Source: Candidatus Dormiibacterota bacterium (GTDB lineage Bacteria; Chloroflexota; Dormibacteria; Dormibacterales; Dormibacteraceae). From it: a stretch of 64,000 bases of DNA. The position numbers and the translations under genes are program-made. Positions within the stretch are counted from its first letter, which is position 1. Each line of letters begins with the position of its first letter. Shown here in pieces: positions 30,370 through 45,731 of the stretch. The stretch spans positions 124,001-188,000 of the forward strand of contig JAMXLM010000015.1 in the NCBI GenBank assembly GCA_024280995.1, given 5' to 3'. Under the pieces are notes generated by a model. It saw nothing but the letters and a program-made list of their open reading frames with translations, ran no database searches and had not been told where the DNA came from.

Positions 30370-30990
30370 ATGGATCAGAAAGCCAAGGAACAGGCGTTCA
30401 TGAGTGCCTTGGTGACCGAGCACTTCGTCCAGCAGTCCGCAGCGAGCGCCACGATCAGCGAGAGCAGCAGCCGGGCTTCGCTGTACCTGTTGTCGCTGTC
30501 GAGCTCGCTCGTTGCGCTCGGATTCGCGACGCAATCAAAGCAGGCCTTCCCATACTTCGCCGCCACGATCCTTCCCGCGATTTTCATACTGGGCATCTTT
30601 TCCTTCGTGCGCGTCACCGACACGGCGATGGCGAACTTGAACTCGCTGCGTGCGATCGCTCGGATTCGCCGCTTTTACGCGGGACTGGTCCCCGAAGCGC
30701 CGAGGTTCTTTGGCGAGCACGATGCCGCCGGCGACACGGCCACGGCGCTCAGCTTCATCGGCATCACCCGGTCGTGGGCCAATGCCCTCTTCTCGATGGC
30801 CAGCACTCTCGCGGCCATCAACTCTCTGGTTGCCGGCGTTGGCGTCGTGATCCTGCTGGTCATGAGCTTTGGGCCTGGTGCGTTTGGTCCGGCGGTGGCC
30901 ATCGGCGCCGTCGTCGTCATCGGTCTCATGGCGGCCGCGATCGCCTATCAGCTCCGCCGTTTTCGGCAGATGGTCGCCGGCAGGCATTAG
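30370..30990 (+). CDS. Hypothetical four-helix membrane protein
   Basis: 206 residues from ATG 30370, with GGGGAGGG at 30358-30365. A soluble helical N-terminus (EQAFMSALVTEHFVQQSAASA) precedes helices near 40-60, 66-85, 150-172 and 178-198. The segment between helices 2 and 3 contains RAIARIRRFYAGLVPEAPRF. No family recognised. Its stop overlaps that of the convergent gene by 4 bp (TTAG). Confidence 0.6.
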   Translation: MDQKAKEQAFMSALVTEHFVQQSAASATISESSSRASLYLLSLSSSLVALGFATQSKQAFPYFAATILPAIFILGIFSFVRVTDTAMANLNSLRAIARIRRFYAGLVPEAPRFFGEHDAAGDTATALSFIGITRSWANALFSMASTLAAINSLVAGVGVVILLVMSFGPGAFGPAVAIGAVVVIGLMAAAIAYQLRRFRQMVAGRH

Positions 30991-31856
30991 CCGGGGCACT
31001 CCACGACGCAGAGGTCGTGACTGCCGTCGGCGCGAGGTCGCTCGAAGTATGCGAGATGGCCCCCGGTGGGAACCGGCACCATGTCGAGGTAGCGCACGTT
31101 CGCGACCGGCCCATCCCCGGTCGCCTGCAAGCTTGCGCCGGCACTCTGTGGCAGCGCCAACCCGGTTCGCTCGGAGAAGTTCTCTTCCCTGTTCGCTCTC
31201 CCGTCGTAGCTGGCTCGTCCATCGGGCAGAACGGACGTCACGCGAGCGCCTCGGGCATCCCAGTATCCGGGGCGTCCGGACAAAACATCGCCGAGCCACC
31301 GCCATTCGAGCCCGTCGTCGCTGATCGCATACGAAGTGCTCATTCGGTCCTCTTCGCCGGGTTGATCGAGCGGGTGACAGCACAACCAGGCCTGCCACCG
31401 GTCACCTTGGCGGCGCACCACGGGATCTTTGACCCCAACCAGATCGCTGCCGGCAAAGGCGCCTCTCGGCGTGCTGTTGTGAAATTCCTCGGGTCGCGCC
31501 GCGTCGATCGCGTCGACCCGCCAGTGCTTGCTGCCGGGCGTTGCGCAAGACATGTACAGCCGCCAGCCTCGATCCAGCCGCACGAGCGCGGGTCGCTCGA
31601 GAGACTCGGCGCTGAAACTCTCCTTTTCGATGACGTCGACGGTCTCGAGGTGCCGGCCGTCCTCTGAGATGGCCACGACGATGCTGCTGCCCCGCCGATC
31701 GGGAGTACGCAGCCGGTAGGCGATCGCGATCAGACCCTTTGGCCCGAAGGCGGCGCTCGACGCACCGGCCCAGAATCCCGGTCCCGAACCCGGCGCCGGC
31801 ACAGCCACCGTCGCCTGGGCCGTCGCGGAGGCGAGAAACGCGTACGGGTCCTGCAC
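30987..31856 (-). CDS. Glycosidase-like five-bladed beta-propeller protein
   Basis: About 289 residues without a signal peptide. Repeated blades such as GFWAGASSAAFGPKGLIAIAYRL, ERPALVRLDRGWRLYMSC and GVKDPVVRRQGDRWQAWLC (the DPxV/ExPxL elements of GH43/GH32-like propellers) are visible in successive segments. The first is quoted as two overlapping parts of one blade. Catalytic residues cannot be assigned. GTG 31856 is used, but an in-frame CTG at 31868 overlaps the acyl-CoA dehydrogenase stop as CTGA. It may be the last gene of the leftward arm of the catabolic locus. Confidence 0.6.
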   Translation of the reverse strand: MQDPYAFLASATAQATVAVPAPGSGPGFWAGASSAAFGPKGLIAIAYRLRTPDRRGSSIVVAISEDGRHLETVDVIEKESFSAESLERPALVRLDRGWRLYMSCATPGSKHWRVDAIDAARPEEFHNSTPRGAFAGSDLVGVKDPVVRRQGDRWQAWLCCHPLDQPGEEDRMSTSYAISDDGLEWRWLGDVLSGRPGYWDARGARVTSVLPDGRASYDGRANREENFSERTGLALPQSAGASLQATGDGPVANVRYLDMVPVPTGGHLAYFERPRADGSHDLCVVECPG

Positions 31857-31864
31857 CGGCTGGG

Positions 31865-43905: not shown

Positions 43906-43940
43906 GCCCGCCTGCGCCCTGTAGGTCAAGCTAGTCTCCG

Positions 43941-45731
43941 ATGACGGCAGCCGTCGACCCCGTCGTGTTGCGACAGAAGTACCGCGAGGAGCGCGACAAG
44001 CGACTTCGCCCGGATGGAATCGACCAGTACGTCCGGATCGCCGATCTGTTTCCCGAATACCTCGAAGACCCTTATCTGCCCGTTGTCGATCGAGAGCCCC
44101 GGACCGACCACGCCACGTTTGCGTTCATGGGCGGCGGTTTCGCCGGCTTGCTGACCGCGGCCCGACTGAAGGAAGCGGGCGTCGCAGGCGTGCGGATCGT
44201 GGACAGGGCCGGCGACTTCGGCGGCACCTGGTACTGGAACCGCTATCCGGGCGCTCAATGCGACACGGCCTCCTTCGTATACATGCCGCTTCTCGAAGAG
44301 ACGGGGCACATGCCGACCGAGAAATACGCCCACGCGCCCGAGATCCTCGAGCACTGCCGGCGCATCGCGACGCAGTACGGCCTCTACGACGATGCGCTCT
44401 TCCACACCGAGGTGACGCGGGTCGCGTGGGATGAGGCGAGCGGAGCCTGGGTCATCGAGACTTCCCGCGGCGACCGGTTCACCGCGACATACCTGGGCCT
44501 TGGCCTGGGTCCGCTCAACGTCCCCAAGCTGCCTGGCATCCCCGGCATGGGCTCGTTCGGCGGCCGCTCCTTTCACACCAGCCGCTGGGACTACGAATAC
44601 ACGGGCGGCGACCCGTCTGGGTCACCCATGACCAGGCTGCGCGACAAGCGTGTCGGCATCATCGGCACCGGTGCCACCGCCGTGCAGTGCATTCCTCACC
44701 TGGCCCACGCCTGCAAGGACCTGTACGTATTCCAACGGACACCGTCGTCGGTGGACGTGCGCGACAACCGCCCGACCGATTCGGCGTGGTTTGGCCAGAT
44801 CGCGACTCCCGGGTGGCAGCTGAGCTGGATGGAGAACTTCGCCGCGAACCAGTCGTTCGCCTTCCCGGAGGAGGACCTGGTGATGGATGGCTGGACCGAC
44901 ATCGGTCGCCGGATCCGCTACCGCCTTCTCGAGGCGGGCCTGAGCGAGCTCACGCCGGAGACGATCCAGGCGGCGCTCGAGCAGTCGGACTTCGAGAAGA
45001 TGGACGGCATTCGGGCGCGTGTCGACGCGATCGTCGAGGATCCGGCGACCGCTCAGAGCCTGAAGGCGTGGTATCGCCAGCTGTGCAAGCGCCCGTGCTT
45101 TCACGACGAGTACCTGCAGGCGTTCAACCTTCCCAACGTCCACCTCGTCGACACGGATGGGAGAGGGGTGGAGCGAATTACCCCGTCAGGCGTCGTCGTG
45201 GCCGGCGAGGAATACGAGGTCGACTGCATCGTCTACGCGTCGGGCTTTGAGGTCGGAACGGATTTCACGCGGCGCGCAGGGTTCGAGATCACCGGCCGCG
45301 ACGGTCACACGATGTCAGACCACTGGCGCGATGGGATGCGGACGATGCACGGCGTGCACGTGCACGGGTTCCCGAACCTGTTTTTCGTGCAGACGTTCCA
45401 GGGCGCCAACCTGATCTCGAACGTGCCGCACAACCTGTACGACGCGGCGCGGACCGTGGCCATGGTCGTCAGCCACGCGTCGGATGTGAAAGCAGGGCGA
45501 GTCGAGGTCACCGCGGAAGCCGAGGAGGCCTGGATGGAGCTGGTGCTGTCAGGTCAGAGCCTGCTTCAGGGCCGGGACTGCACACCGGGTTATTACAACA
45601 ACGAGGGGCATCCCGACGACCCCCGAATCCGGTTCTTCGCCGGGTACCCGGCGGGCCCGAGCGCCTACTTCCAGTACATCGAGGCGTGGCGCTCAGACGG
45701 CAGATTCGAGGGTCTTCAGTTCACCAAGTAG
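43941..45731 (+). CDS. Flavin-containing (Baeyer-Villiger-type) monooxygenase
   Basis: 596 residues. Two Rossmann sites, GGGFAGLLTAARL (FAD) and GTGATAVQCIP (NADPH), flank the type I BVMO fingerprint FGGRSFHTSRWD (FxGxxxHxxxWP/D). Motifs such as GDFGGTWYWNRYPGAQCD are those of cyclohexanone/phenylacetone monooxygenases. It inserts oxygen next to a carbonyl or hydroxylates N or S. It is the last gene in this direction, 35 bp after the transporter, and may carry out a late or optional step. Confidence 0.85.
   Translation: MTAAVDPVVLRQKYREERDKRLRPDGIDQYVRIADLFPEYLEDPYLPVVDREPRTDHATFAFMGGGFAGLLTAARLKEAGVAGVRIVDRAGDFGGTWYWNRYPGAQCDTASFVYMPLLEETGHMPTEKYAHAPEILEHCRRIATQYGLYDDALFHTEVTRVAWDEASGAWVIETSRGDRFTATYLGLGLGPLNVPKLPGIPGMGSFGGRSFHTSRWDYEYTGGDPSGSPMTRLRDKRVGIIGTGATAVQCIPHLAHACKDLYVFQRTPSSVDVRDNRPTDSAWFGQIATPGWQLSWMENFAANQSFAFPEEDLVMDGWTDIGRRIRYRLLEAGLSELTPETIQAALEQSDFEKMDGIRARVDAIVEDPATAQSLKAWYRQLCKRPCFHDEYLQAFNLPNVHLVDTDGRGVERITPSGVVVAGEEYEVDCIVYASGFEVGTDFTRRAGFEITGRDGHTMSDHWRDGMRTMHGVHVHGFPNLFFVQTFQGANLISNVPHNLYDAARTVAMVVSHASDVKAGRVEVTAEAEEAWMELVLSGQSLLQGRDCTPGYYNNEGHPDDPRIRFFAGYPAGPSAYFQYIEAWRSDGRFEGLQFTK

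Follow-up and report, generated by a model that had tools for sequence, protein, structure and literature searches.

A divergent, probably catabolic locus

The locus described here lies in a 64,000-nucleotide stretch of DNA, which we call the window (positions 124001-188000 of contig C15, JAMXLM010000015.1), in the genome of a Candidatus Dormiibacterota bacterium (the host genome; 3.02 Mb, 46 contigs, 94% complete). A sequence-only reading of the window had proposed a catabolic locus with genes of stated families arranged divergently around a GntR/FCD regulator, and this description was borne out: all fourteen genes, the regulator included, are intact open reading frames of the families claimed (frame check; Pfam and NCBIfam scans). 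The left arm comprises an M24/Creatinase_N protein, an acyl-CoA dehydrogenase and a protein of about 289 residues that has no family match in either scan, and the right arm comprises ten genes, for a class I pyridoxal phosphate (PLP) enzyme, a luciferase-like monooxygenase (LLM) family oxidoreductase, an FrdA/NadB-like flavoprotein, an isochorismatase-fold protein, an M20 protein, a substrate-binding protein, a permease, an ATPase, a second permease and a protein like the Baeyer-Villiger monooxygenases (BVMO) (Table 1). From the regulator to the BVMO gene the gaps between neighbors are -4, -4, -4, -17, -4, +39, +31, -11, -4 and +35 bp; the right arm thus ranges from an overlap of 17 bp to a maximum separation of 39 bp. 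The regulator and M24 genes diverge from a common region of 64 bp, and the G+C content of the locus genes (0.65-0.70) is close to that of the window (0.667).

Table 1. Features of the locus in window coordinates (paired numbers are score and model cut-off, in that order)
Feature	Position	Strand	Basis and remarks
Protein of ~289 residues	30987..31856	-	Intact frame; start codon/5' end uncertain; no Pfam or NCBIfam match
Acyl-CoA dehydrogenase	31865..33013	-	Pfam Acyl-CoA_dh N/M/C; best NCBIfam AcrC 360/640, under cut-off
DoeA-like M24 hydrolase (predicted)	33050..34237	-	NF038259 304.5/575; TIGR02993 195.6/613; nearest PDB chain DoeA 6twk; motifs; tree
Divergent promoter region	34238..34301	.	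64-bp gap; candidate operator TTGGATCCAA at 34289-34298
GntR/FCD transcriptional regulator	34302..34997	+	TTG start; Pfam FCD and GntR
Class I PLP enzyme (aminotransferase or lyase)	34994..36190	+	PLP Lys 244; PRK06207 342/464; GntC 225/415; nearest PDB 3nra
LLM oxidoreductase, Mer-like	36187..37221	+	Bac_luciferase; PRK02271 190/276; nearest PDB 8qpm
FrdA/NadB-like flavoprotein	37218..38867	+	FAD_binding_2, Succ_DH_flav_C; TfrA 450/718; QFYPWR for QFHPTG; tree
Isochorismatase-fold amidohydrolase	38851..39477	+	Pfam Isochorismatase; triad D18, K118, C151; nearest PDB 6xix
ArgE/DapE-type M20 deacylase	39474..40667	+	TIGR01910 247.6/217.6, passed; H88, D119, E154, E176, H368
EhuB-fold binding protein	40707..41645	+	Alternative start 40674; pocket D74, A77, F113, S133, R138
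EhuD-type permease	41677..42363	+	TIGR03003 249.7/205.2, passed
EhuA-type ATPase	42353..43168	+	TIGR03005 351.2/345.4, passed
EhuC-type permease	43165..43905	+	TIGR03004 225.5/196.95, passed
Baeyer-Villiger-type flavin monooxygenase	43941..45731	+	NF045818 PtlE 701/1100, under cut-off

The DoeA-like M24 protein and its M20 neighbor

The locus appears to vary the ectoine-type pairing of a hydrolase with a deacylase, here with a deacylase from the M20 superfamily. Judged from its sequence, the M24 protein is DoeA-like and stands outside the DoeA/EutD clade. Its nearest solved structure is the ectoine hydrolase DoeA, at 169.2 bits against 56.6 for creatinase, an identity we rejected, and its H230, E247, W332 and H355 align with matching DoeA positions; it scores far under both DoeA cut-offs. 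H230 and E247 correspond to His238 and Glu255 of DoeA, both presumably catalytic, with Glu255 taken to carry the covalent intermediate, and the PDWGE motif is kept as well. The aspartates with which M24 peptidases bind metal are missing, ELG standing for one and ALMRT for the second, and two other M24 proteins that we found in the host genome look prolidase-like at the metal-ligand positions. A quick tree of 72 rows placed the two DoeA references and seven EutD-type M24 proteins of the window's family in one clade (support 99), and the window M24 in a second (support 93), together with that of a genome designated G036 and 58 other rows, which are proteobacterial.

The M20 protein exceeds the ArgE/DapE cut-off and its alignment is complete at five positions that we take to be metal ligands (Table 1). 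How regularly do the two proteins occur together? When named genomes were scanned with the M20 proteins of the window and G036, 54 loci were returned, or 53 once G036's own contig (L036, proteins 100% identical) had been dropped. A DoeA-like M24 gene lies within 4 kb of the M20 gene on either strand in 48 of these 53 loci, and within 1.5 kb on the same strand in 45. Distances among the M24 proteins are correlated with those among the M20 proteins (Mantel r 0.863, n=59, 0 of 2000 permutations as high), a value in which shared ancestry is included. The M20 protein was present in ten of the 42 genomes searched in the window's family; beyond the window and G036, seven of eight family M20 loci have an M24 gene 0-47 bp away. 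Those seven M24 proteins are of the EutD type (two that were scanned scored 445 and 423 against 613, and the family-wide scan was concordant), so the M20 protein neighbors both kinds of DoeA-like M24. DoeB (TIGR02994) had no match in the host genome, and it exceeded its cut-off in none of the 42 family genomes, where four gave weak matches, and in none of the control genomes either, so that the sensitivity of this search is uncertain. The earlier suggestion that the M20 enzyme takes DoeB's place is therefore supported, both by the proximity of M24 in most loci and by the DoeB counts in the family.

The typical proteobacterial form of the pair is a cassette of GntR, substrate-binding protein, permease, ATPase, M20, a mandelate racemase-like protein (MLE) and M24, with a transaminase, as on pAt of Agrobacterium fabrum C58 (ATU_RS26185-26155) and in Pantoea At-9b; we found no described function for this cassette. 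It shares with the window an M20 protein (42-43% identity) and an M24 protein of the same larger clade (42% identity), a GntR regulator, an amino-acid-type ATP-binding cassette (ABC) importer and a nearby PLP transaminase, whereas the window has the FrdA-like, LLM and isochorismatase-fold proteins in place of an MLE gene, and has an importer closer to Ehu. Elsewhere, kin of the M24 gene on Methylobacterium pMRAD01 lie near genes for 5-oxoprolinase, dihydroorotase and hydantoinase/carbamoylase, and an unannotated Paracoccus locus (L131) holds M24, GntR, a PLP enzyme with RidA, a carbamoylase-type M20 and a 5-oxoprolinase (the last two by our own reading), neighbors that point to cyclic amide or ureido chemistry.

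Two further arrangements of these genes were observed. In L101, from a genome of the window's family (G033), and in its sister loci L099, L100, L102, L103, L105 and L106, an EutD-type M24 gene adjoins the M20 gene, and L101 also carries what by our reading are flavin amine oxidases and a gene resembling ornithine cyclodeaminase; in these seven loci a non-proteobacterial family may possess genuine breakdown of the ectoine type that does without DoeB. A Hyphomicrobiales metagenome-assembled genome has, in a single stretch (L040), M20, two M24, a short-chain dehydrogenase/reductase, an LLM protein, a GMC oxidoreductase, an MTTB-type methyltransferase and a Rieske oxygenase.

The FrdA-like flavoprotein

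In the FrdA-like protein of the window, QFYPWR and QPSTFV replace QFHPTG and TEG.RG, with H342, R376 and R279 retained. We take H232, T244 and E245 of E. coli FrdA to be the site for the second carboxylate, and presume the roles of the other residues likewise; by motif comparison this site, as found in FrdA, succinate dehydrogenase and L-aspartate oxidase, is not retained. No gene for an Fe-S subunit was found among the locus genes in the Pfam scan. Among 61 genomes searched, G036 holds the closest relative (47%), and those after it reach 36-37%. Both motif stretches are replaced, and the same three residues stay, in all three M24-linked FrdA-like proteins (window, G036 and a third genome, G077), and two control FrdA proteins keep QFHPTG. 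The HPT string is present in 37 of 43 aligned rows, or 34 of 39 after four repeated places are dropped. In a tree of 23 rows, the seven copies without the motif (one each from the window and G036, two from G077 and three from a further genome, G139) form one clade (Shimodaira-Hasegawa-like approximate likelihood ratio test support 94); three more rows without the HPT string sit elsewhere, two of them differing only by HPS. On these motifs and this tree, the window protein is a member of a clade that appears to have lost the site for the second carboxylate of succinate.

The association of this flavoprotein with M24 and GntR/FCD recurs, the three being found together in three genomes. On the G036 contig, genes for an HpcH/HpaI aldolase, MmgE/PrpD, a taurine/sulfonate-like ABC importer, FrdA, M20 (64%) and M24 (44%, cut by the contig end) all run the same way, and the contig also has a divergent GntR gene and a Rieske oxygenase gene (some of these labels are our own reading). 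Two lists of 400 genomes that we compared have five genomes in common, and the genes lie close together in two of these, the host and G077. The G077 locus (L155) comprises GntR/FCD, FrdA, a 2Fe-2S protein, HyuA (best model caprolactamase alpha, 634/1000), HyuB, M24 (42%), two MmgE/PrpD and a second M24. It thus shares with the window a GntR/FCD regulator, an FrdA-like protein of the variant clade and an M24 protein of 42% identity, but differs in its caprolactamase/oxoprolinase-like HyuAB, its MmgE/PrpD hydratase-like genes, its separate 2Fe-2S protein and its importer. Several variant-clade genes occur in G139 (L164, L165), some near MmgE/PrpD: one adjoins it, another lies about 3.4 kb off, separated from it by one more FrdA-like gene, and near the third no MmgE/PrpD gene was found.

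The importer and its binding protein

The transporter genes exceed the EhuA, EhuC and EhuD cut-offs, and the binding protein, although its fold is that of EhuB, falls under the EhuB cut-off (149.9/190.9). The residues of EhuB that we take to bind ectoine, E21, F24, Y60, F80 and R85, are D, A, F, S and R in the window protein, so that two of the three aromatic positions of the ectoine cage are lost (F24 to A, F80 to S). Among eight EhuB-like proteins compared, the F24 position is aromatic in all eight and the F80 position in seven. The cage, the clade of the M24 protein and the cut-offs together indicate that the compound imported here is probably not ectoine.

Remaining genes of the locus and its flank

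The candidate operator in the divergent region is a perfect palindrome and the sole exact copy in the window; allowing one mismatch, the window holds three matches, a count that 7 of 100 shuffles reach, which makes it a weak candidate. At the other end, a gene for an adenylyl cyclase/AAA protein begins at 45743, 11 bp past the BVMO gene and on the same strand, and the 3' end of the operon is for that reason not sharply defined. Its frame (45743-47416) overlaps by 4 bp a TPR frame (47413-48888); the two frames may be separate genes or, if a frameshift has intervened, the halves of a single cyclase-AAA-TPR protein.

For the PLP enzyme, an identity as the enduracididine cyclase GntC was rejected because the score is under the cut-off (224.9/415). 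In rhizobia and Variovorax its plasmid kin are flanked by a threonine/serine dehydratase on one side and RidA on the other, and an amino-acid importer accompanies them, a neighborhood which suggests that the enzyme may act as a lyase and not as a transaminase. A conserved cassette of GntR, HAD, substrate-binding protein, permease, permease, ATPase, threonine dehydratase, PLP enzyme and RidA was observed in Martelella, Sinorhizobium and Variovorax (L128, L130, L133). The F420 gene cofH had no match in the host genome, while 11 of 14 controls matched, making flavin the likelier cofactor of the LLM protein. The structure nearest to the isochorismatase-fold protein, 6xix, is named just "cysteine hydrolase", and PtlE, the best model for the last gene, is presumably a BVMO. 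The propeller label given earlier to the 289-residue protein was not confirmed, the single-sequence structure model being too poor (mean predicted local distance difference test score 38.7).

A proposed pathway and its alternatives

We put at about 0.52 the probability that the locus, under GntR/FCD control, serves the catabolism of a single small carboxylated nitrogen compound, ectoine-like in type but distinct from ectoine; the substrate would presumably be a cyclic amidine, a cyclic amide or an N-acyl amino acid. The compound would be imported by the EhuB-fold protein and the EhuACD-type transporter. The metal-free M24 enzyme would then hydrolyze an amidine or other C-N bond by means of Glu247 and His230 to give an N-acyl amino acid, from which the ArgE/DapE-type M20 enzyme would strip the acyl group, the task of DoeB/EutE in ectoine breakdown. 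Next, the FrdA-like flavoprotein would dehydrogenate beside a single carboxylate, the PLP enzyme, the LLM oxidoreductase and the isochorismatase-fold amidohydrolase would take off the remaining nitrogen, and the acyl-CoA dehydrogenase and BVMO would act on the carbon skeleton. Such a course, from import through the two hydrolytic steps to dehydrogenation and loss of nitrogen, accommodates every part of the locus. N-acetyl-diaminobutyrate is a homologue of the ArgE substrate, one carbon shorter. It is the product of DoeA (PMC5924519). That M24 and M20 act consecutively as hydrolase and deacylase is probable, and somewhat more so than the reading of the locus as a whole; the complete order of steps is unlikely to be right throughout. 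What the sequences themselves show is the gene set, the family assignments, the site residues retained and missing and, by counting, the recurrent M24-M20 and M24-FrdA-GntR links; the full pathway, with its unity, order and class of substrate, is what we infer.

The resemblance to EutD-EutE (DoeA-DoeB) with EhuABCD lies in a DoeA-like M24 protein, a deacylase gene in the locus, an EhuACD-type transporter, an EhuB-fold binding protein and the logic of an N-acyl amino acid. The differences are the M20 origin of the deacylase, the position of M24 outside the DoeA/EutD clade, the loss of the ectoine cage and the regulator, which is GntR of the FCD type and not the MocR-type EnuR of ectoine catabolism (PMC8739950). 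In addition, family scans of the locus found no EutABC, DoeC or DoeD among its fourteen genes. The Rut and creatinase pathways share with the window the LLM and isochorismatase folds and the creatinase fold, respectively, but the window proteins are far under their cut-offs or closer to other families. The LLM protein was rejected as RutA (27.3 against a cut-off of 498.3; it is nearest to Mer), and the isochorismatase-fold protein as RutB (76.3/378) or biuret hydrolase (68.7/370). The idea that the ectoine, creatine and uracil routes have each contributed one piece to the locus was thus not upheld, since the M24 protein is no creatinase either. In its broader claims the sequence-only reading fared better: cut-offs, clade and nearest families agree that the locus is not a known ectoine, creatine or uracil pathway, and there is support for a locus that breaks down some small zwitterionic compound containing nitrogen.

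Could the genes instead be unrelated functions side by side, with the importer and the M24-M20-FrdA chemistry separate from whatever the BVMO, acyl-CoA dehydrogenase and 289-residue protein do? That just parts of the locus recur elsewhere, and that the adenylyl cyclase gene, with no evident role, is equally close at 11 bp, speak for this, but six of the nine right-arm junctions from the PLP enzyme to the BVMO overlap translationally and the two arms have a common divergent regulator region, and we regard it as improbable, although as the most plausible of the alternatives. Breakdown of ectoine or 5-hydroxyectoine itself, with M20 replacing DoeB and the class I PLP enzyme replacing DoeD, is less plausible still, given the DoeA scores and clade, the substitutions in the cage, and the fact that the published ectoine consumers are Proteobacteria (PMC5924519).

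Only a slim chance attaches to the scavenging of small peptides or N-acylated dipeptides by an M24 Xaa-Pro peptidase and an M20 aminoacylase, which has in its favor the family names and the fact that kin of the M24 protein are publicly annotated as members of the Xaa-Pro peptidase family; the M24 protein, unlike its two prolidase-like paralogs in the host genome, is without the metal-binding positions of true peptidases. Slimmer again is the chance that the substrate is no amidine or amide at all and that the locus degrades a methylated, betaine-like compound. The combination of M20, two M24, LLM, methyltransferase and Rieske oxygenase in L040 and the Rieske oxygenase adjoining the G036 locus fit it, but Pfam and NCBIfam scans found no methyl-removing enzyme in the window locus, and the G036 oxygenase scores best against benzoate dioxygenase (251/781), with 113/670 for glycine betaine monooxygenase.

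Several observations weigh against our reading of the locus as one pathway for an ectoine-like compound. Its complete gene set and order were found in no other genome searched, leaving the accessory enzymes without comparative support as one pathway; the sequence-only reading was to fall if the order were conserved nowhere else, and parts of it do recur, M24-M20-FrdA-GntR in G036 and M24-FrdA-GntR in G077. The G077 stretch gave no match to M20, and the G036 and G077 loci carry other types of ABC importer, which weakens any argument from the Ehu-type importer. In the M24 tree the window and G036 rows sit on long branches and their pairing has a support of 31. The M20 loci were chosen by two short peptide patterns and are therefore biased toward close kin, and even so five of the 53 are without a counted M24 within 4 kb: L082, L086 and L087 have none, L071 has one at 4.8 kb and L039 has a partial match at a contig end. 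The shared ancestry within the Mantel value belongs here too.

Somewhat more tentatively than for the locus itself, we suggest that DoeA-like M24 and ArgE-like M20 may form a general, undescribed bimodule for non-ectoine cyclic amidine or amide carboxylates in Pseudomonadota and the window's phylum, to which the window would add a new clade of FrdA-like dehydrogenases acting on monocarboxylates. If this is true, the neighboring genes annotated as Xaa-Pro peptidase and M20 metallopeptidase in many rhizobial and related genomes would be a catabolic module for a class of small nitrogen compounds, some Ehu-type importers would be wrongly annotated as transporters of ectoine, and the members of the variant FrdA clade would be dehydrogenases misnamed as fumarate reductases.

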